DNA of 64,000 bases from Catenuloplanes indicus (GTDB taxonomy: Bacteria > Actinomycetota > Actinomycetes > Mycobacteriales > Micromonosporaceae), in NCBI RefSeq assembly GCF_030813715.1, contig NZ_JAUSUZ010000001.1:2232001-2296000 (forward strand), written 5' to 3'. The notes beneath the pieces are model-generated. The model was not told the DNA's origin, made no database searches, and saw only the letters and a list, made by a program, of their open reading frames with translations. Shown one piece after another: positions 36,967-46,653 of the stretch. Within the stretch, counting starts at the first letter, position 1. Each line of letters begins with the position of its first letter. A program made the translations under genes and the position numbers.

Positions 36967-38685
36967 ATGATCGGCACAAGCCGGCTTACACACCAGGCGA
37001 TCCGTCGCCTGCTGCTCAGACTCGCCATCCTCACCCTCGGCCCGGCCGCCGGCTGGCTCTTCTTCCTCCTCCTCTCCCCCTCCCCCGCCCACGCCGCACC
37101 CGGCTCCGACACCGCACTGCCGCTCACGGTGAGTGATGCCGCGGCGGGGGTGACGACCCTCGTGGAAGCCGCGGCCGACGCGCCCACGACGACTGCGGAC
37201 GGCGAGGACGCCGAGGACCCGCCGGGCGGTGGCGGTGAGACGGCAGCGAAGCCGGCACCGATCGAGAGCCGGACGACGACCGCGCCGGCACGAGCCGCCG
37301 CAGAACCGGCCCGAGCCGTGGCCGGGACGGTCACAGAGGCCGCCGCACCGTCCATGGAAGCGGTCGCGCCGGTCAAGGAGATGACCGCGCCGGTCTCGGG
37401 ATCGGCTGCGCCGGTCGCGGAGGCTGCCGCGCCGATTGTGGATGTGGTGGAGACGGTCCCGGACGCGGCCGCATCCACCACGAACGTGGCCGGTACCGCC
37501 GCGAACGTGACCGCATCCACCACGAACGTGGCGGTTGCTGTGACCGAGACCGCCACAGAAGTAGCGCCCCTCGCGAGTGAGGCGGTTGCGGGAGGCGGTT
37601 CTCAGGTGATCACGGACCTGGAGAACGTGGCCGGTGCCGCGATCGAGGCGACGAGCGGGGCCGCCGCACCGGCGCCGGCCGGCACCGGTGCCGACGCGGC
37701 GGTGGAGACCGCCGCCGTACCGGCCGCGTCGCTGGTCGCCGCGACGAAGAATGCCTCGAGCGCACCCGCCGCCACAGGACCGGTCAGGTCGCTCGTCACC
37801 ACGACGACAGTCGATGTCGTCGGAGCCGCCCGGGCGCCGGTCGAGCCGGTGCTGTCCATCGTGGTGACGCCGTTGCGCCCGGCTGCCGGGACGCCGGGCG
37901 CACCCGTGACCGACACGGTCACGGCAGCGACCGGACCGGCAGCCCAGGAACCGGTACCGGCCGCCGCAATCGGCGAGGTCACGGCGATGGCCGCAACCAT
38001 GCTCGGGCAACCCGTGGTCGCGCCGGTGATCGACGCGGTCGTGGTCGTCACGCGGACCGCATACGCAATCCAGGCCACACACGCGGTCCAAGCAGCACAC
38101 GGCGCCCGCGCCGCCTACGCGGCGCAAGCCGCCTACACCGCACAGGCTGTCCATGCCGCACGGGCCGCTCACGCAGCCCATGTCGCCGTTGCAGCTCAGG
38201 CCGCCCACGCCGATCACACGGTGCAGCGTGCGGCGGAGGCCGCCACGCTGCCCGGGGCGAACCCCCGGGCCGGCGCGGCACCGCGGCTCGTCGTGCCGGC
38301 GGCGCCCCACCCGGCCGTAGCCGGGCCACCGGCACCGGGCCACCGGCGGTGGCCGCCGCAACCGCGCCGGCCGGACCCGGCCGGTGGTGCGCGGACAACC
38401 GCCCGCCCCACCTGCGATCCCGGTGCGCCCGTCACCGCGGCCGGGGGCGGCGGCACCGTACCGTCGGATGGTCCTGGTGGTGACGAAGGCCCGGCAGGGC
38501 CTCGAACCGGTGGTGAGGCGTCCGGTCCGGTGCACGGTGTGCGCGGTGGTGAACAGCCCGGCTCACCGCAGGCCGACGCCACGCCCGGGCCGGCGGTGCT
38601 CGGCATCCGTGCCGAGATCGCGCCCCGCCCGGCCGACCAGCACCGCGACTCGCGGGTGATCGAGGTTCCCGACTCCCCCGGGTGA
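36967..38685 (+). CDS. Secreted Ala/Pro/Thr-rich low-complexity protein
   Basis: 572 residues, ATG 36967 directly after GAGAGGG. A basic N-terminus and a long hydrophobic segment end in SPSPAHAAP, a clear signal peptide. The mature part is ~35-40% Ala with runs of AAPVAEAAAPIV type and a His/Ala tract at ~360-430 built on an A-A-H-A or A-A-Y-A beat (VQAAHGARAAYAAQAAYTAQAVHAARAAHAAHVA). The tail is Gly/Pro-rich. No Cys after the signal peptide except one near 480, no anchor motif. I recognise no family. It precedes two regulators of the lanthipeptide locus on the same strand, so a surface or aerial-hypha role is possible but unproven. Confidence 0.65.
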   Translation: MIGTSRLTHQAIRRLLLRLAILTLGPAAGWLFFLLLSPSPAHAAPGSDTALPLTVSDAAAGVTTLVEAAADAPTTTADGEDAEDPPGGGGETAAKPAPIESRTTTAPARAAAEPARAVAGTVTEAAAPSMEAVAPVKEMTAPVSGSAAPVAEAAAPIVDVVETVPDAAASTTNVAGTAANVTASTTNVAVAVTETATEVAPLASEAVAGGGSQVITDLENVAGAAIEATSGAAAPAPAGTGADAAVETAAVPAASLVAATKNASSAPAATGPVRSLVTTTTVDVVGAARAPVEPVLSIVVTPLRPAAGTPGAPVTDTVTAATGPAAQEPVPAAAIGEVTAMAATMLGQPVVAPVIDAVVVVTRTAYAIQATHAVQAAHGARAAYAAQAAYTAQAVHAARAAHAAHVAVAAQAAHADHTVQRAAEAATLPGANPRAGAAPRLVVPAAPHPAVAGPPAPGHRRWPPQPRRPDPAGGARTTARPTCDPGAPVTAAGGGGTVPSDGPGGDEGPAGPRTGGEASGPVHGVRGGEQPGSPQADATPGPAVLGIRAEIAPRPADQHRDSRVIEVPDSPG

Positions 38686-38797: not shown

Positions 38798-39397
38798 GTG
38801 ATTCGCACGATGATTTTCTCGAACCATGTGCTGCTGCGTGAGTCCCTGCATGCGGTGTTGTCCACGGAGCTTGAGGTGACGTCCGTGGGTGGGGACGACG
38901 GTGAGGTGCTGACCGCGGCGCACAAGATCCGGCCGGACGTGATCGTGGTGGATCTGGACGGGCCGGGGCGGCACGGTCTGCGGACGGTGCGGCTGCTGGT
39001 GGCGGAGCTGCCGGAGTGTGCGGTGGTGGCGCTGACCGGGCGGCACACGCCGCACGCGTTGCGGGCCGCGCTGACCGCTGGGGCGCGCGGGTTCGCGTCT
39101 CGGCAGCAGCCGCCGGCCGAGCTGGTCGATCTGATCCGGCGGGTCGGCCGCGGCGAACGGATGATCCATCCGGGGACCGCGCTGGCCACGCTGGCGGCGA
39201 TGCACAATCCGCTGTCCGCGCGCGAGCGGGACGTGCTGCGTCGCGCGGCGCGCGGGATGCCGAGCGCCGCGATTGCGTCCGAACTTTTTCTGTCCGAAGG
39301 AACAATTCGGAACTATCTATCTTCCGCGGTGCGGAAACTGAACTGCAGAAATCGGTTGGAAGCGGCCCGTCTCGCCGAGGAGGCGGGCTGGATCTGA
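38798..39397 (+). CDS. NarL/LuxR-type regulator with atypical receiver, near the ram locus (1)
   Basis: 199 residues from GTG 38798 with GGGAG eight bases upstream (GTG 38780 and ATG 38783 also in frame). The receiver reads VIRTMIFSNHVLLRESL, so the paired acidic residues after strand 1 are Ser-Asn; Asp47 in IVVDLDGPG is present at the phosphoacceptor place. The LuxR HTH is intact: LSARERDVLRRAARGMPSAAIASELFLSEGTIRNYLSSAVRKLNCRNRLEAARLAEEAGWI. The RamR regulator of SapB synthesis is likewise a NarL-type protein. Likely controls the convergent ram genes. Followed by a clear terminator. Confidence 0.82.
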   Translation: MIRTMIFSNHVLLRESLHAVLSTELEVTSVGGDDGEVLTAAHKIRPDVIVVDLDGPGRHGLRTVRLLVAELPECAVVALTGRHTPHALRAALTAGARGFASRQQPPAELVDLIRRVGRGERMIHPGTALATLAAMHNPLSARERDVLRRAARGMPSAAIASELFLSEGTIRNYLSSAVRKLNCRNRLEAARLAEEAGWI

Positions 39398-39414
39398 CGC
39401 ATCGACGCAGCTCA

Positions 39415-39447
39415 CCGGCCGGGTCGCGACAAAAACGACCCGGCCGG
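39415..39447 (+). terminator. Hairpin between the two regulators
   Basis: Perfect 12-bp stem (39415-39426 with 39436-39447), loop containing AAAAA, 18 bases after the first regulator's stop. The two regulators are therefore probably separate transcripts. Confidence 0.7.
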
Positions 39448-39557
39448 GCGACGGCCATCCGACAGTTGCGCTAACGAGTTACCTACACGTTTGGGCGCGC
39501 TCCCAGCCGATCGTCTGTGCTTGAATGTGGACGGGTATTGCCATGTGGTTAACCGGT

Positions 39558-39573
39558 TGTGTCGATCTGTCGA
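39558..39573. promoter_or_regulatory. Tandem octamer TGTCGATC-TGTCGATA upstream of regulator 2
   Basis: Two adjoining octamers lie just upstream of the AAGGGG ribosome site of regulator 2. One more TGTCGATA occurs on the minus strand about 50 bp before the ramC start (46422-46429). A shared regulator site is possible. Confidence 0.35.
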
Positions 39574-39586
39574 TAAGGGGCCCGGT

Positions 39587-40201
39587 GTGGTGCGCATTCT
39601 GCTGGCGATGCCGCAGGGGCTGCTGCGTGGCGCTCTGAGATACGTGCTGTCCACGCATCCGGACATGGACGTGATAGCGGAGCGTGACGCGGTGGACGCC
39701 ACGATCGAGGCGGTCCGGTCCGACGCGCCGGACGTGACCGTGCTCGACCTGGAGCTGCTCAACGGGCCGGGGCGGGACCCGGCGGGCGCGGCCCGCGCCG
39801 CCCACTCGGAGCTGCCGGACAGCAAGATCCTGGTGCTGGTCGACCCGCGCCGGCCCGGGGTCGGCGCGCACATCGCGTCGGGTCCGCCGACGATCGGTTT
39901 CCTGGCGCAGACCGCGTCACCGGAGCGGGTGGTGGACGCGGTGCGCCGGCTGGCCGCGGGCGAGCCGGTGGTGGACGCGGATCTGCTGGTCGCCGCGCTG
40001 ATGCCGTCGTCGCCGCTGACCGATCGGGAGTTGCACGTGCTGGAGGTGGCCGCGCTCGGCACACCGGTGAAGGAGATCGCGCGCACGCTGTCGCTGTCAC
40101 CGGGAACGGTGCGCAACCACCTGTCCCGGATCATCGCGAAGACCGGCGCGCGCAACCGGATCGAGGCGATCCACCTGGCCAAGGAGAAGGGCTGGATCTG
40201 A
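39587..40201 (+). CDS. NarL/LuxR-type regulator with atypical receiver, near the ram locus (2)
   Basis: 204 residues from GTG 39587, six bases after AAGGGG. The receiver begins VVRILLAMPQGLLRGAL, lacking both acidic residues that bind Mg2+, while the strand-3 Asp survives (VTVLDLELL). HTH: LTDRELHVLEVAALGTPVKEIARTLSLSPGTVRNHLSRIIAKTGARNRIEAIHLAKEKGWI, very like regulator 1, so the pair looks duplicated. The last 105 bp overlap the 3' end of ramB on the other strand. A phosphorylation-independent mode is inference. Confidence 0.82.
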   Translation: MVRILLAMPQGLLRGALRYVLSTHPDMDVIAERDAVDATIEAVRSDAPDVTVLDLELLNGPGRDPAGAARAAHSELPDSKILVLVDPRRPGVGAHIASGPPTIGFLAQTASPERVVDAVRRLAAGEPVVDADLLVAALMPSSPLTDRELHVLEVAALGTPVKEIARTLSLSPGTVRNHLSRIIAKTGARNRIEAIHLAKEKGWI

Positions 40202-41803
40202 CATCTCGCGGTAGGCGCCAGACGTCCGCAGCAGCTCCGCGTGCGTGCTGAGCACCGGGGCGGCGCCGTCGAGGAGCAGCACGTGCCGGCCGCGCGCGGC
40301 GGAGGCCAGCCGGTGCGCGATCACCACGAGCGCGCCCGGCCGCGCCGCGAACGCGGCTTCCGCGCGGGCCTCGGCGGCCGGGTCGAGGTGACAGGTCGCC
40401 TCGTCCAGAATGGCCAGCGGCTCCGGTGACAGCCACGCCCGGACCAGCGCGATCAGCTGTTTCTCCCCGGCCGAGAGGGTGGCCGGGTCGATCCGGCCGT
40501 CGAGCCCGCCGAGCCGGTCGATCAGCGGCCAGGCACCGAACGCGGCGATCCCGCGCAGCACCGGCGCGTCCGGGGCCAGGTAGCGCAGGTTCTCCAGGAC
40601 GGTGCCGGTGAAGACGTACGCCTCCTGCGGCAGCAGCACGCGCCCGGCGCAGCGCACGTCGCCGTGCTGCGGCACGATCAGGCCGGCCATCAGCGCGGCG
40701 AGCGTGGACTTGCCGATGCCGCTGGCCCCCACGATCACGAGGTGCTCACCCGGGCCGACGTCCAGGTCGAAGCGGTCCAGCACGGGCGCGGCGGCCGGGC
40801 CGTACCGGAACGTCACGCCGCGCATGCGCAGCAGGCCACGGTCCGGCGCGCGGAGCGGCTGCGGCTCCGGCGCGGGTTCGGCGAGGATCCGCCGGAGCGT
40901 CACGCCGTAGCGCAGGCCGCCCTGGGCCAGGCCGTGCATCAGCAGGTGCAGCGCCGGCACCAGCGCCTGCCGCACGTAGACCATGGCGCCGAGCAGCACG
41001 CCCGCGCCGATCCCGCGGCCGGTCAGCCAGGGCGCGGCGACCAGCAGCACGACCAGCGGTCCCCACCCGCCGACCGCGAGGCAGGCGCCGCGCAGTGCCC
41101 CGGCGGTGCCGAGCGCGTGTTCCGCCCGGGACTGGGCGTCGACCGCGTCCGCGACCACACCGGCCGCCCAGTCACCGGCACCGGCCGCGGCCACGTCCCG
41201 GTGCGCGCGCAGCATCGGCTCCGCGGTCGCGGCCAGGTCCTCGTCGGCGCGCACATAGGACAGCTGGCGCCGCGCCAGGCGCGGCAGGAGCAGAGCGAAC
41301 AGACCAAGACCGAGCAGCAGCGGTACGGTGACCAGCCCGGCCAGCACCGGCGCCAGCGCGAGCAGGCCGGCGATCGCGGCGACCAGGCTGAACGCGAAGC
41401 CCCGCACGGTGGTGAGCAGCCCGGCGAGCGTGTCCCGGACCACCTCGACCTGCCGGGTCAGCTTCGCCACGGCCGCGCGGTCCGGCGAGGCCGCGCCACG
41501 CAACGCGCCGGTCACCACGCGGCGCACCAGCCGGTCCCGGAACGGCTCCACGACATCACCGAGCCGCCGGTACGCGCCGCGCGCACCGATCGCGCCCACG
41601 CCCGCGGCGACCGCGTAGCCGCCGAGCCAGGCCAGCCCGGTGGCGACGTCACCGGCGAGGAAGCCGTCGTCGATCGCGCGGGCGGTGGCGTACCCGCTGA
41701 TCAGCGCGGGCGCGGTCTCGACCAGTGACCACACCGCGAGGCCCGCGACCGCACGCCGGTCCCGGCGCAGCTCGCGCAGCGTGTAGCGAGTGGCCGCGCC
41801 CAT
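40097..41803 (-). CDS. ramB: ABC exporter half-transporter RamB
   Basis: 568 residues: membrane domain ~1-300 (six spans) and ATPase domain with VGASGIGKSTL (Walker A), LSAGEKQL (signature, Ser-Ala-Gly variant), PLAILDEATCHLD (Walker B) and IAHRLASA (H loop). The ATG at 41803 overlaps ramA's TGA. It should pair with RamA to export the modified RamS peptide. The final ~35 residues, after SGAYREM, have no counterpart in the family as I know it and are encoded antisense to the end of regulator 2. Confidence 0.88.
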   Translation of the reverse strand: MGAATRYTLRELRRDRRAVAGLAVWSLVETAPALISGYATARAIDDGFLAGDVATGLAWLGGYAVAAGVGAIGARGAYRRLGDVVEPFRDRLVRRVVTGALRGAASPDRAAVAKLTRQVEVVRDTLAGLLTTVRGFAFSLVAAIAGLLALAPVLAGLVTVPLLLGLGLFALLLPRLARRQLSYVRADEDLAATAEPMLRAHRDVAAAGAGDWAAGVVADAVDAQSRAEHALGTAGALRGACLAVGGWGPLVVLLVAAPWLTGRGIGAGVLLGAMVYVRQALVPALHLLMHGLAQGGLRYGVTLRRILAEPAPEPQPLRAPDRGLLRMRGVTFRYGPAAAPVLDRFDLDVGPGEHLVIVGASGIGKSTLAALMAGLIVPQHGDVRCAGRVLLPQEAYVFTGTVLENLRYLAPDAPVLRGIAAFGAWPLIDRLGGLDGRIDPATLSAGEKQLIALVRAWLSPEPLAILDEATCHLDPAAEARAEAAFAARPGALVVIAHRLASAARGRHVLLLDGAAPVLSTHAELLRTSGAYREMSDPALLLGQVDRLDPVARAGLRDDPGQVVAHRSR

Positions 41804-43551
41804 CAGCCCGCACCGCCCCGGACCGCGGCCGGCCGCCGGCCGTGGCCGGCGGCTCCGTTCGCGCGGGCCGGCGCCGCGGACGGTGCGAACACCGCGCGAT
41901 AGCCGGGATCGGACCAGAGCGCGTGGTGCGGGGCGCAGGCGCGCAGCCGGCCGCCGTCGAGCCAGGCGACCAGGTCCGCAGCGGCGGCCGTGGCCCGGCG
42001 GTGGGTGACGACCAGGCGGGTGACGCCCCGCGCGTGGCGGGTCAGGGCCGCGCCGATCCGCGCCTCGGTCACGCTGTCCACGCTGGACGACGCGTCGTCG
42101 AGCACCAGCAGCCGGGCGGCATGCAGTGCGCGGGCCAGGCCGAGGCGCTGCGCCTCGCCGCCGGACATCGGCGCGTCCGCCAGCGGCGTGCCGTACCCGC
42201 CGGGGAGCCGCCGGACGTAGTCGTCGATGGCGGCGACGCGCGCGGCCTCGGCCACGAAGCCCGGGTCGCGGCCCATCGCGATCGCGTCGCCGACGGTACG
42301 GCCGGCCAGCGCGGGCCGTTCGAAGCCGTATCCGACCGCGGCGGCCAGCGACGCCCGGTCCAGCGCGGGCAGCGGCACGCCGTCGAGCGTGACCGTGCCC
42401 TCGTCCGGGTCGCGCAGCCGCCCGGCCACGGCGGCGAGCGTGGACTTGCCGGAACCGGACCGGCCGACGACCGCGATCACGGTCCCGCCGGGCACGGTCA
42501 GCGTGAGCCGGTCCAGCAGCGGCCGGCCGTCGGCGGACCGCACGCTCACCTCCGTCAGCCGCAGCGTGCCCACGCCGCCGGACCGTGCCGGCGGCGGATC
42601 GACGAGCCGGACGGTGCCGTGGGCGCGGGGCCGTTCGGCGATTATGCCGGCGGCGCGTTCAGCGCCGCTGCGGGCGCGGACCAGGCGGTTCAGCGTGCCC
42701 AGGATCGCGCCGAGGCCGGCGCCGAGCGCCGCGTACTGCAGCGCGGCGATCAGTTCGCCGGGCGTGAGCCGGCCCGTGGTGAGCAGCGTCCCGGCGGTCG
42801 CGACCACGGCGATCTGGGTCAGCGGCGCCAGCACGGCGGTGCGCCCGGCCGCGACCGCGAGCGCGGCCCACGTACCCCGGCCGTGTTCTTCCAGCTCGGG
42901 CAGGGGCCGCAGGACGCGGCGGATCTCGGCCGCCGCGGTGCCGGCCGTCGCGATCGTGCGGGCGCCGGTCATCGCCTCGGCGAGCAACGCCGCGATCCGG
43001 CCCTGGACCCGCTGGTATCCGGCCGCGGACGCGGACGCGCTGACCACGAACCCGCGCAGCAGTGCGGTGAGCAGCAGCAGCCCGGCGACCAGCGCGACCG
43101 CGAGCCACGGGTCGAGCAGCGCGAGCGCGATCAGGCTGCCGGCCGGCGGCAGCACGGAGACCAGGCCACCGACGAGGGCGCCGACCGCGGACCCGGCGTC
43201 CGCGGCCTGCGTGCCGAGCCGCGCGACCAGGTCGCCGGCCGGGCGGCCGATCGGGTGCGGGAGCGTGAAGAGGCGGGTGAGCAGCGCGCGGCGCAGATGT
43301 GCGGTGGCGCGGGCGGTGCCGGTGGCGGTGGCCAGGTCGGTGAGCACGTCGGCGCCGGCCGCGATCACGACCAGCGCGGTGGTGACGACGATCCAGCGGT
43401 GTGCGGAGCCGTCGAGGACCGCGTCGACCGTACGGCCGATCGCGGCCGGGACGAGCAGCGCCGCGACCGCGCCGGTGAGCGACGCGACCGCCAGCAGGAC
43501 CGCGTGACCGCCGGCCGCGCGCACACAGCCGAGCAGGATGCGGTTCGTCAT
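41803..43551 (-). CDS. ramA: ABC exporter half-transporter RamA
   Basis: 582 residues. Membrane domain (TNRILLGCVRAAGGHAVLLAVASLTG ... LPHPIGRPAGDLVARL) and ATPase with VGRSGSGKSTLAA, MSGGEAQRLGLARAL (signature), LLVLDDASSSVD (Walker B with Asp for Glu) and VTHRRATA. The ramCSAB order (modifying enzyme, peptide, two half-exporters) matches the SapB locus of Streptomyces. Start ATG 43551, 81 bp after ramS with a strong hairpin between. Confidence 0.88.
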   Translation of the reverse strand: MTNRILLGCVRAAGGHAVLLAVASLTGAVAALLVPAAIGRTVDAVLDGSAHRWIVVTTALVVIAAGADVLTDLATATGTARATAHLRRALLTRLFTLPHPIGRPAGDLVARLGTQAADAGSAVGALVGGLVSVLPPAGSLIALALLDPWLAVALVAGLLLLTALLRGFVVSASASAAGYQRVQGRIAALLAEAMTGARTIATAGTAAAEIRRVLRPLPELEEHGRGTWAALAVAAGRTAVLAPLTQIAVVATAGTLLTTGRLTPGELIAALQYAALGAGLGAILGTLNRLVRARSGAERAAGIIAERPRAHGTVRLVDPPPARSGGVGTLRLTEVSVRSADGRPLLDRLTLTVPGGTVIAVVGRSGSGKSTLAAVAGRLRDPDEGTVTLDGVPLPALDRASLAAAVGYGFERPALAGRTVGDAIAMGRDPGFVAEAARVAAIDDYVRRLPGGYGTPLADAPMSGGEAQRLGLARALHAARLLVLDDASSSVDSVTEARIGAALTRHARGVTRLVVTHRRATAAAADLVAWLDGGRLRACAPHHALWSDPGYRAVFAPSAAPARANGAAGHGRRPAAVRGGAG

Positions 43552-43572
43552 GACGCCCCCAGATATGGGCCC

Positions 43573-43596
43573 GCCCCGGCGCGTGTGCGCCGGGGC
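43573..43596 (-). terminator. Hairpin between ramS and ramA
   Basis: Perfect 10-bp stem GCCCCGGCGC/GCGCCGGGGC around GTGT, 37 bases after the ramS stop and 22 before the ramA start. Likely an attenuator or transcript-end stabiliser that gives more peptide mRNA than transporter mRNA. Confidence 0.65.
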
Positions 43597-43632
43597 AGGA
43601 CCGTGCGGGTGTGTGGTGCGTGAGCCGGAGGC

Positions 43633-43755
43633 TCAGTTGCAGGTGGTGACGCTCAGCGAGCTGTCGCCGCAGAGCAGCAGGCTCGCCTGGCTCCCGCCGC
43701 CACCGCCGCCGGTCGCGTCCTCGATGTCCATGCCCTGGAGGTCGAGCAGCGTCAT
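43633..43755 (-). CDS. ramS: SapB-like class III lanthipeptide precursor RamS
   Basis: 40 residues. Leader MTLLDLQGMDIEDA carries the LxLQ-like motif (LLDLQ) used by LanKC enzymes; a six-Gly run follows. The core has two S-x-x-S-x3-C units, Ser22-Ser25-Cys29 (SQASLLLC) and Ser32-Ser35-Cys39 (SSLSVTTC), ending in Asn. From memory of SapB, the core differs at about three positions. Ser would be phosphorylated and eliminated by RamC and joined to Cys as lanthionine or labionin. SapB coats emerging aerial hyphae as a surfactant. ATG 43755 is chosen; an in-frame extension to 43824 has no family likeness. Confidence 0.93.
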   Translation of the reverse strand: MTLLDLQGMDIEDATGGGGGGSQASLLLCGDSSLSVTTCN

Positions 43756-43820
43756 GCTCAACACCTTCTCTCTCTGTCGTACTGACGGGTGACTGTTCTT
43801 TCTTCCGCGCGCCGGAAGTC

Positions 43821-46373
43821 TCATGCCGGTGCCCCGGCGGGTACGGCCGTGCGCGGCGCGGGCGCAGCGGCGGTGGTCGGTGCGAGCAGCGGCAGCGCGG
43901 TGCGCTCCGGGTCGCGGGCCATGGTGAGCGCGAGCAGCACGCCCGCGGACCCGGTGGCCAGGTCGGTGGAGAGCCGCAGCAGCTGCTCGCCGAGGAAGGT
44001 GAGGTGCTCGCCATACGGCAGCGCGTGCCAGACCAGCGCACCGGCCTGCCGGGCGAGCGCGGGCGCGTCCGCGACGATCCCGGCGGCGACCCGCGAGGCC
44101 AGGTAGGCGACGATCCCGGCACGCCCGGCGAACAGGCCGGACTGCGCGTAGAACGGTGACCGGGCGGCGAGCCGGATGGCGGCGGACGCGTCCCGGAACT
44201 CGGCCACGTCATCGTGCCGGAGGTAGCGGTCCAGCGCGATGCCGATGCCCACGCTGCCGTGCGCGAGGTACGGCATGGTCCGCCAGCCCTCGTTCACGTG
44301 CATGGTGCCGTCCTCGGTGAGCACGCAGGCGTGCAGGTCGCGGCGGAGGGCACGGGCGGCCAGGTCGAGCAGGGCCGGGTCGCGCGTGGTCTCGTACCGG
44401 TGCAGGAAGAACAGGGCCGGGCCGGTCCAGCCGCGGGTCAGGCCCGCGTAGGGATTCGTCCGCCCGCTGGTCTCCGCGGGTGACGGTGCTCCGTCGAGCC
44501 GGTCCGCGAGCAGTTGCAGCACCTCGTCGGCGCGGTCCCGCACGCCGAACCGGTCCAGGCTCAGGCCGACGCCGGCGAGGCCGCTGACCAGGTCGTGGTT
44601 GAGTTCCCGCCACGGTTCGTCCAGGCAGATCCCGAGCAGCGACCGGGCCTCTCCGGTACGGCCCAGCGCGTCCAGCGCGAACGCGACGCCGTGCAGCCCG
44701 TCCCACAGGCCGAGCCGGCTGCCGGACGGCGGTGGCGCGACCCGGTCGGCCAGCCACTGCTCGTGCTCCGGGAAGCGGCCGGCACCGCAGGTGTGCAGCG
44801 TCCACAGCACACCCGCCGCGCCGTACCCGAGACTCAGCCCGCCGCTGCGGAACTGCTCGATGTCGCCCGGGAACAGCCGGTCGACGCGGGCCGGGGTGGC
44901 GGTGGCGAGGATGCCGGTGGCGATCCGGTCCCGGTCCAGCGTGAGCGGCCGGGCCGGGGGCGCGTCCGCGCCGCGGATGATCCGCACCGCGTCGTCCAGG
45001 TACGTGTCCGGTACGTCCGGGAACCGGGACCGGATGATCGTGGCGAAGTGCGCGGCCTTCTCCGGCGCCAGTCGCAGCACCGCGGTGAGCGGCAGGAACA
45101 GTGCGAGTCGCAGGCAGGCCAGCGCGTACTCGTCGACCGCGAACCCGGTCCGGTCGCGCGGCGCCGCGAACGCCTGGTTGCGCAGCGCCGGCCGTGCGTC
45201 CTCGGCGACGTCCCGGGCCGCCTCGAAGTCGAGCAGCGTGATCCGGTCGTCCGGGCGCACCATCACGTTGAACAGGTGCAGGTCCCCGTAGACCACGCCG
45301 TGCCGGTGGATCTCGCGGATCACGCGTTCCACCTGCGCGTGCACGTCCAGCGCCCAGTTCGTGAACTCGCGCAGGCCGTCGCCGGTCGCGTCCGGCCGGG
45401 TGAGCGGGTACCGCCGGACCAGCGCCTTGTTCAGCGGCTCGCCCTCGATCAGGTCCAGGGCCAGGAAGTAGTGGTCACCGAGGCGGAACTCGTCGTGCAC
45501 CCGGGCCAGCTGCGGCACGTCGGCCAGCCGGCGGAGCATGTCGCGTTCCCGGCGCAGGCGGGTGACCGCGTCCGCGCCGGTGGCGTCCAGCCCGGCGTGC
45601 GGACGTGCCTCCTTCAGCACGACGCTGTCGCCGGTGCGGGTGTCCCGGCCGGTGTAGAGCCCGCCGCCGTTGGAGAAGTGCAGGACCTTCTCGATCGCGT
45701 ACGGCACGGAGGCGACCTTCGCGGCGCCGCGCGCCTCGAGGTGCGGGCGGAGGAACGTGGGCAGCTCCACCCAGGCCGGGACCGTGAAGACCGGTTCGCG
45801 GCGGTCCGGGACGAGCGTGCCGGTGGCGTCCGCGATCGCCGGGACGACCTTGCCGGACTCGTCCAGGCAGTAGCGGGCCGCGAATCCGCCGTAGCGGACG
45901 TAGACCGGGCCGTCGCCGTAGCGCAGGTCGGAGAGGATGTACGGCCCTTCGCGGCCGGCCAGCAGCGCGTTCAGGTCCGTGCAGACCGTCTCCAGCTCGG
46001 TGTCGTCGTGCGGGTAGACGGTGACGAACTTACCGCTGCTGCCCCGGCCGGCGTACTTGCTGTTCCGCATGAGCAGCATCTGCGGGCCGCGCAGGAACTT
46101 GAACCCGATACCCCGGGCGGTGCAGTAGTCCCAGACGAGTGCGAGCACCTCGGCCGCGTCCTCACGGCGTGCGGAGATGTGCACCTTCCAGCCCTGGGCC
46201 GGCAGCCGGTCGCCGTCCGGCCCGACCACGGTCCAGTCGTCCTGCGCGGCGCGCTTCCAGCCGTCCGGGAGGACCAGCTCCTCGCCGTACTCGGTGGTGC
46301 GGGCCTTGGTGTTGGTGAGGGCGTCGTAGAAGAGCGGATCGACAGCGCAGTAGGAGTCGTATCGCTCGTCCAT
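43821..46373 (-). CDS. ramC: Class III lanthipeptide synthetase RamC (LanKC)
   Basis: 850 residues from ATG 46373 with GAGGGG upstream. N-terminal lyase region ~1-220 (YDSYCAVDPLFYD, WKVHISARREDAAEVL, GFKFLRGPQMLLMRNSKYAGRGSSGKFVTVYP), kinase ~240-520 (GDSVVLKEARPHAG, HRHGVVYGDLHLFNVMV, ITLLDFEAARD), and a C-terminal cyclase-like domain ~540-840 (GAAGVLWTLH, GLWDGLHGVAFALDAL, GLAGVGLSLDRFG, GWTGPALFFLHRY, HGSVGIGIALDRY) lacking zinc ligands, as in class III. Phosphorylates, dehydrates and cyclises RamS. First gene of the operon, 66 bp before ramS. Confidence 0.94.
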   Translation of the reverse strand: MDERYDSYCAVDPLFYDALTNTKARTTEYGEELVLPDGWKRAAQDDWTVVGPDGDRLPAQGWKVHISARREDAAEVLALVWDYCTARGIGFKFLRGPQMLLMRNSKYAGRGSSGKFVTVYPHDDTELETVCTDLNALLAGREGPYILSDLRYGDGPVYVRYGGFAARYCLDESGKVVPAIADATGTLVPDRREPVFTVPAWVELPTFLRPHLEARGAAKVASVPYAIEKVLHFSNGGGLYTGRDTRTGDSVVLKEARPHAGLDATGADAVTRLRRERDMLRRLADVPQLARVHDEFRLGDHYFLALDLIEGEPLNKALVRRYPLTRPDATGDGLREFTNWALDVHAQVERVIREIHRHGVVYGDLHLFNVMVRPDDRITLLDFEAARDVAEDARPALRNQAFAAPRDRTGFAVDEYALACLRLALFLPLTAVLRLAPEKAAHFATIIRSRFPDVPDTYLDDAVRIIRGADAPPARPLTLDRDRIATGILATATPARVDRLFPGDIEQFRSGGLSLGYGAAGVLWTLHTCGAGRFPEHEQWLADRVAPPPSGSRLGLWDGLHGVAFALDALGRTGEARSLLGICLDEPWRELNHDLVSGLAGVGLSLDRFGVRDRADEVLQLLADRLDGAPSPAETSGRTNPYAGLTRGWTGPALFFLHRYETTRDPALLDLAARALRRDLHACVLTEDGTMHVNEGWRTMPYLAHGSVGIGIALDRYLRHDDVAEFRDASAAIRLAARSPFYAQSGLFAGRAGIVAYLASRVAAGIVADAPALARQAGALVWHALPYGEHLTFLGEQLLRLSTDLATGSAGVLLALTMARDPERTALPLLAPTTAAAPAPRTAVPAGAPA

Positions 46374-46653
46374 CTCTGCCCCCTCTCGGCCGTTCGGCTG
46401 TTGACATGAAACAGATTGGCCTATCGACAGGGGCGTCCTGAAGTGCTGCGCGTCATGCGATGCGGGTCCGATCTGCACCGGAAGTCATGACAAAACGCTG
46501 GTTTAAACGGTCCGGTTCTGGCTATGGGCGCACCGGACGGGGCGGCGCGATCATGCCCGTGGCCAGGCAACCGTCCGCGGTGGCGCTTTTTGTCGTACCC
46601 GTTGGATAGGTTCTCGGGGTCTTCGTTCCTCACCTTCGACGGAAGGGCCCCCG

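Follow-up and report, generated by a model that had tools for sequence, protein, structure and literature searches.

How a SapB-type lanthipeptide operon may be controlled by two regulators that lack part of the phosphotransfer chemistry of their receiver domains is the question raised by a locus of Catenuloplanes indicus, family Micromonosporaceae. The locus lies in a stretch of 64,000 nucleotides (nt) of the 9.25-Mb genome; this stretch is the window, and all positions are numbered from its first letter. Here, the intact ram gene set ramC-ramS-ramA-ramB (40097-46373, minus strand) stands tail to tail with two convergent genes on the plus strand, reg1 and reg2 (38798-39397 and 39587-40201), which encode NarL-type paralogues. 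According to the explanation we prefer, and to which as a whole we assign a probability of about 0.6, Reg1 and Reg2 would activate ramCSAB together and without phosphotransfer by binding a two-part candidate operator upstream of ramC. The genes are as follows:

43821..46373, minus strand: ramC, class III lanthionine synthetase LanKC, 850 amino acids (NCBIfam NF038151, 1041.6 bits with a cut-off of 575; Pfam RamC_N, 269.9 bits)
43633..43755 (stop included), minus strand: ramS, SapB/AmfS-type precursor, 40 amino acids (Pfam RamS, 64.0 bits; NCBIfam NF033212, SapB_AmfS, 67.2 bits)
41803..43551, minus strand: ramA-like ATP-binding cassette (ABC) half-transporter, 582 amino acids (ABC_membrane and ABC_tran)
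40097..41803, minus strand: ramB-like ABC half-transporter, 568 amino acids, whose 3' end overlaps reg2 (ABC_tran)
39587..40201, plus strand: reg2, the regulator gene nearer to ramB, pseudo-receiver and LuxR-type helix-turn-helix (HTH), 204 amino acids (GerE, 58.2 bits; no PF00072 match)
38798..39397, plus strand: reg1, the distal paralogue, pseudo-receiver and LuxR-type HTH, 199 amino acids (GerE, 63.1 bits; Response_reg, 44.4 bits)

The ram gene set itself is a member of an already known kind. As in the ram/amf loci of Streptomyces, a SapB/AmfS-type precursor, an adjoining LanKC, two ABC half-transporters and a convergent LuxR-type regulator downstream were found, the latter in two copies instead of one. 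Open frames and family-model matches bear out the original prediction for this window, which had claimed that all four ram genes are present and intact, that the core of RamS resembles SapB (it consists of two S-x-x-S-x3-C units, in line with the RamS and SapB_AmfS matches), and that two paralogous NarL-type regulators lie downstream and convergent (36% identity across 206 aligned positions, GerE matches and plus-strand positions). The proposed Reg1 start at GTG 38798 is also preferable to the upstream ATG 38783, which would give 204 residues, because translation from this in-frame ATG would end within six codons in three of the other four Catenuloplanes (alignment read by eye). As part of the explanation given above, we regard the locus as a complete SapB-type (class III lanthipeptide) locus, probably inherited vertically in Catenuloplanes.

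For comparison, 140 loci were annotated: 60 regions spanning 58 genomes of the family, and 80 loci from a wider search, the best 80 of 201 confirmed RamS loci. Among 150 family genomes, RamS-type precursors occur in 57 above the cut-off and in 58 at an expect value E ≤ 0.001. After removal of six duplicates (L151, L155, L156, L183, L194, L196), 45 non-redundant loci with the tandem regulators remained, termed pair loci below. The Streptomyces set includes L207, a record titled Actinobacteria bacterium OV450.

In a canonical NarL-type receiver five residues are expected: an acidic pair, the phosphoacceptor aspartate, a threonine or serine, and a lysine. Reg1 reads SN-D-T-R, i.e. the acidic pair is Ser-Asn, the aspartate (Asp52 when counted from GTG 38798) and threonine are kept, and lysine is replaced by arginine. 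Reg2 reads MP-D-V-Q, with Met8-Pro9 at the acidic pair, Asp54 kept, Val85 in place of threonine and Gln108 in place of lysine. This matches the earlier reading of Ser-Asn in one protein and no acidic residue in the other; the retention of the phosphoacceptor aspartate in both is a point which that reading had not contained. Among 25 other full-length NarL-type regulators of the same genome (read from 30 loci kept among 76 GerE matches), 24 possess both acidic residues and the 25th has one plus an alignment gap; thus, Reg1 and Reg2 are outliers and not chance variants. AlphaFold models, computed for single chains, gave a mean predicted local distance difference test (pLDDT) value of 93 for Reg1, with a five-stranded receiver and the HTH, and of 86 for Reg2, with five receiver strands, the HTH and a weaker alpha-4 region. 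The notion that Reg2 is no response regulator, since PF00072 misses it, was rejected because its model and full-length PDB sequence matches show the fold. Among solved structures, the best sequence match of both proteins is DesR (4ldz), which has the same domain order. Canonical regulators such as DesR and NarL possess the phosphotransfer residues and partner kinases, whereas neither the acidic pair nor the lysine is present in Reg1 and Reg2.

A genome-wide search confined to HisKA_3 kinases gave 40 matches; the nearest is 36.8 kb away from Reg2 and 37.6 kb from Reg1, although 39 of the 76 GerE matches have a HisKA_3 match within 3 kb. At two other pair loci (L069 and L056), none of ten adjoining open reading frames (ORFs) is a kinase according to Pfam. 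A nearby kinase as partner was rejected on these grounds, i.e. for HisKA_3 in the window and for these ten ORFs, with the other classes not searched genome-wide. Judged by their surroundings, Reg1 and Reg2 look like orphan regulators, and their independence of phosphorylation is likely. The retained aspartate of both proteins (also kept in 42 of 45 Reg2-type and 35 of 45 Reg1-type proteins) and the 40 HisKA_3 matches would suit an alternative in which a kinase encoded far away, or one engaged in cross-talk, still phosphorylates the receivers at this residue, the metal ligands having changed. We consider this very unlikely: the acidic, metal-binding pair and the lysine are gone from both proteins, and the aspartate changes three times on the Reg1 tree while the gene is retained. 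Moreover, in a 2025 review the RamR protein of S. coelicolor is reported to be an intrinsic dimer without phosphorylation, in which the aspartate serves dimer formation, not via phosphorylation (PMC12632262).

Comparing the receivers with RamR, as had been proposed, showed that the Streptomyces-set proteins do not possess the full acidic pair either (0/42, with a gap in one; S. coelicolor is not among the loci), while aspartate is kept in 42/42 and lysine in 41/42. In the Reg2-type proteins of the 45 pair loci, both acidic residues, the threonine or serine, and the lysine were each found in none (gaps in three for the acidic pair). The absence of the complete pair from all 42 Streptomyces-set and all 45 Reg2-type proteins indicates that its loss is typical of the RamR family. 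Reg1 and Reg2 combine, like RamR, a receiver and a GerE-type HTH, with the acidic pair gone and the aspartate kept. They differ from Streptomyces-set RamR, which has the lysine and forms a clade of its own, in having no lysine.

With respect to gene order, a single convergent regulator was found at 42 of 46 Streptomyces-set loci, the contig ending before the regulator in the other four, in contrast to the two regulators found here. The tandem pair spans one clade of Micromonosporaceae, comprising Catenuloplanes, some Actinoplanes and Paractinoplanes, Micromonospora and several other genera, and on a RamC tree of 97 rows it requires one change. The pair is thus, as judged from the trees, of single old origin and clade-wide in one branch of the family, not a local oddity. 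A recent local duplication was rejected, as the paralogues share only 36% identity and the one origin is as deep as a multi-genus clade. A regulator tree was thinned to 135 rows, with 14 Streptomyces-set and eight Micromonospora loci kept and five Micromonospora-type loci left out. In this tree, the group containing Reg1 has 34 rows (support 89 in the Shimodaira-Hasegawa-like approximate likelihood ratio test, SH-aLRT), of which L082 and the non-ram L228 are not from tandem-pair loci; the group containing Reg2 has 36 rows (support 96), of which L068, L082, L089 and L091 are not from convergent-pair loci. The sub-branches of the two groups mirror each other. Further regulators of Micromonosporaceae form a group of 21 rows that falls, with the Reg2 group, into a set of 60 rows (support 98); the 14 Streptomyces RamR proteins are a separate clade (support 100), and all of these stand side by side with the Reg1 group in one 113-row set (support 91). 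RamR-like regulators are common at the Micromonosporaceae ram loci compared here, whether or not they are orthologues by name. The original prediction had called a possibly phosphorylation-independent control unusual. Independence is likely, given the residues and the HisKA_3 distance; the word unusual is not upheld, because loss of the acidic pair is typical of RamR, the review passage on RamR offers a precedent (PMC12632262), and the pair is clade-wide.

Among the 45 Reg1-type proteins, both acidic residues are found in 21 and the lysine in 31, and in all five Catenuloplanes Reg1 and Reg2 have neither acidic pair nor lysine. On a Reg1 tree of 48 rows, the state with all five residues needs at least six changes, the acidic pair three, the aspartate three and the lysine five. 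The combination Ser-Asn...Arg is common to Catenuloplanes, Actinoplanes KI2, A. xinjiangensis and Paractinoplanes rishiriensis; one Micromonospora branch lost the aspartate instead. As reconstructed from these sequences, the receiver chemistry of Reg1 was lost several times and by different routes, which is newly found here. The ratio of nonsynonymous to synonymous substitution rates (dN/dS) among the five Catenuloplanes is 0.10-0.25 for reg1 and 0.16-0.30 for reg2, compared to 0.16-0.33 for ramC and 0.21-0.40 for ramA and ramB. These estimates place both regulator genes under purifying selection in this genus, reg1 at least as strongly as reg2. An ordinary locus that is silent or decaying in this strain is accordingly a most improbable alternative: none of the six reading frames is interrupted, purifying selection acts on the five large genes among the five species, and RamS is 92-100% identical to its counterparts in the four other Catenuloplanes.

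In an alignment of nine ramC upstream regions, two conserved islands were found, which we name El1 and El2:

46488..46504, minus strand: El1, upstream half of the candidate ramC operator, AAAC-N8-TGTCA (conserved in the nine aligned genomes)
46442..46456, minus strand: El2, downstream half of the candidate ramC operator, ATGAC-N6-CACT (from the alignment; the only RTGAC-N6-CACT of the window)

Together they lie 69 to 131 nt upstream of ramC, and in some relatives El1 has the full form AAACN-TGAC-N4-GTCA. The starts of the TGTCA and RTGAC cores are 36 bp apart here and 35-38 bp across the ram loci measured. The composite pattern TGTCAY-N28..32-RTGAC-N6-CACT was scored in 133 of the 140 loci, after excluding those with less than 150 nt upstream or without a ramC start. 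It occurs in 43 of 45 pair loci (L093 and L148 lack it) and in 4/4 Micromonospora loci whose contig ends before the regulators, compared to none of the 33 other Micromonosporaceae loci and none of 45 in the Streptomyces set (0/78 together). El2 alone was found in 13 of these 33 and in 0/45. The whole genome of C. indicus contains one exact match (no mismatches allowed). In the family, 34 of the 150 genomes contain matches, 35 in all, of which 24 are at ram loci with one per genome; the reversed control gave three. One match, in genome G112, lies on a separate contig and precedes the N-terminal half of ramC. Mononucleotide shuffles of the upstream regions of pair loci yielded 0/9000 for a related pattern with gaps of 22-30 and 4-7. 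The composite requires three changes on the RamC tree, and these may be read as one gain and two losses. L093 (genome G113) is a natural case of partial loss: El2 is degraded there, and Reg1 is nearly stripped of receiver residues (EA-G-C-A).

Two other ideas on this region were rejected, namely a GTCATGA direct repeat at 31 bp as operator, since it is present with at most three mismatches in just 19 of 45 pair loci, and autoregulation via the same element, since RTGAC-N6-CACT occurs in the window at ramC alone. Searches of the open-access literature yielded no paper that treats RamR-type regulators in tandem in Micromonosporaceae, or an El1/El2 operator. Paired pseudo-receivers with a defined candidate operator are, as far as the sequences tell, a new variant relative to the known ram loci.

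According to our preferred explanation, Reg1 and Reg2 would be NarL-type orphans that bind DNA. Their receivers would no longer perform phosphotransfer and would instead serve as surfaces for dimerisation or ligand binding, with the retained aspartate as a structural residue. Both proteins would act together, bind El1/El2 and switch on ramCSAB, and their activity would be set by regulator level or a ligand, not by a kinase. A control of aerial growth by Reg1 and Reg2 is what we infer from this arrangement.

Several observations weigh against this explanation. Of the 35 family-wide composite matches, eleven are located away from ram loci. TGTCAY is present in 45/45 pair loci, and also in 4/33 and 7/45 control upstream regions; an El1-register score of at least 10/13 is reached by 40/45 pair loci, and by 8/33 and 5/45 controls, with a consensus derived from the same data. 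As both occur in control loci, El1 alone is weak. On the RamC tree, pair and element can each be traced to a single branch, so that their association at ram loci counts as one event, not 45. L106 and L076, which have one Reg1-related regulator each, possess an El1 that nearly matches. L082 combines El2 with a Reg1-like and a Reg2-like gene, but no El1 is present there. Because of these three loci, El1 is not strictly pair-specific, and a strict link between El1 and Reg1 was rejected. Ten of 45 pair loci encode a Reg1-type protein with all five receiver residues, so phosphorylation may matter in some relatives. Finally, the absence of a kinase from the window holds for HisKA_3, as other classes were not searched genome-wide.

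The two proteins may share the work as a heterodimer, by acting side by side, or as activator and modulator. In a special case of the preferred explanation, Reg1 and Reg2 would form an obligate heterodimer, and ramC expression would then require two developmental inputs at the same time. The model for this is the Streptomyces heterodimer BldM-WhiI, formed by two orphan atypical response regulators of development (PMC4125116, PMC12632262). In contrast to Reg1/Reg2, which stand at one locus with one exact composite site, BldM-WhiI has many targets, and the two systems are likened by description. The heterodimer is suggested by the tandem arrangement in all 45 pair loci, the mirrored sub-branches of the regulator tree and the repeated loss of Reg1 receiver chemistry inside the pair clade. 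It remains tentative, as El2 is found at single-regulator loci (some of the 13/33) and L106 and L076 have El2 plus a near El1; a homodimer can evidently serve such promoters.

Single-regulator loci point to another possibility, in which one of the two, most likely Reg2, is the activator and Reg1 is a modulator, an antagonist or a regulator of a different target. Many of these loci in Micromonosporaceae use proteins grouping with Reg2 (the 21-row group mentioned above), 13 of the 33 loci without the tandem pair have El2 without a strict El1, and Reg1 is very divergent at the pair loci L148 and L093 (end branches of 1.1 and 0.9). This division of labour is likewise tentative, since purifying selection on Reg1 is at least as strong as on Reg2 in Catenuloplanes, and the genome offers no second exact composite site.

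A second case, outside the ram loci, allows the El2 half to be considered separately. One non-ram composite match, in genome G118, precedes the gene of a 181-residue protein facing a RamR-like regulator; this protein has a signal-like N-terminus (judged by eye) and no Pfam or NCBIfam match. A search with it gave 22 matches in 21 of the 150 genomes. ATGAC-N6-CACT is found 78-103 nt upstream in 8/8 genes with a RamR-like ORF nearby and in 0/14 genes without (scored within the fetched flanks of about 1.5 kb on each side), with an El2 background of about 0.006 per 350-nt window, ram sites included. Fisher's test gives 3e-6, uncorrected for kinship, and overstates independence because all eight carry one genus code (g29), a genus termed Actinoplanes-like here as Actinoplanes sp. 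KI2 (L140) has the same module. The contrast of 8/8 with 0/14 ties El2 to the regulator rather than to the ram genes, and thus supports the El2 half as an operator, as far as co-occurrence can. El1 has its full form in four of the eight. The distance from TGTCA to El2 is 37-38 in four and 14-15 in the other four, two spacings that differ by roughly two turns of the helix. The former four alone fit the composite spacing of the ram loci. The modules themselves (L241:6044-7380 in G118; L244-L251; L140:17516-18332) consist of a RamR-like regulator beside a probably secreted, hydrophobic protein of about 180 residues without family match. Their regulators, in those read, have Glu-Pro at the acidic pair and Asn at the phosphosite. 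Actinoplanes sp. KI2 possesses both this module and the ram pair.

Further features of the locus were noted. Upstream of reg2, a block is nearly invariant:

39515..39566, plus strand: conserved block of about 52 nt, probable promoter or control region of reg2 (alignment; 5/5 Catenuloplanes)

Directly after it, four of the five Catenuloplanes have GTCGATAA (block plus motif, 39515-39576), which we take to resemble a WhiG/FliA-type -10 element. The six locus genes contain no TTA codon, so that control via bldA/TTA was rejected. The 3' ends of ramB and reg2 share 105 nt (40097-40201). Such overlaps, 71-171 nt long, are also present in Catenuloplanes, Actinoplanes, G020 and many loci belonging to one Micromonospora branch, and at other pair loci the gaps are small or as large as 5.5 kb. 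Three loci of genus g10 (L058, L074, L080) have ramC, ramS and both regulators, with no ramA/ramB-like ORF found within the fetched stretch. Two or three tandem copies of ramS exist in Micromonospora and some other genera (L054, L063, L084, L087, L149, L177 and others). Directly upstream of reg1, an ORF of 572 amino acids (36967-38685, plus strand) with an Ala/Pro/Val-rich look and no Pfam match is a putative gene.

A broader and clearly more speculative reading joins these observations. The RamR-type pseudo-receivers of Micromonosporaceae might constitute a phosphorylation-independent family with an operator of its own (AAACN-TGAC-N4-GTCA plus RTGAC-N6-CACT, with cores about 36 or about 14 bp apart) that controls cell-surface products in general: SapB-type peptides at ram loci and, in the Actinoplanes-like genus, a family of hydrophobic proteins that are probably secreted. 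In the pair clade they might act as an obligate heterodimer, Reg1 having shed phosphotransfer several times and by different routes once paired. The 2025 review names the way in which pseudo-receiver regulators are turned on and off as a major unknown (PMC12632262). The locus described here comprises two pseudo-receivers, one target operon and one exact candidate operator, with many natural pocket variants in related genera, which makes this compact two-regulator system a practical place for testing such switching. Together with the second target, the candidate operator makes a RamR-type regulon outside Streptomyces directly testable.

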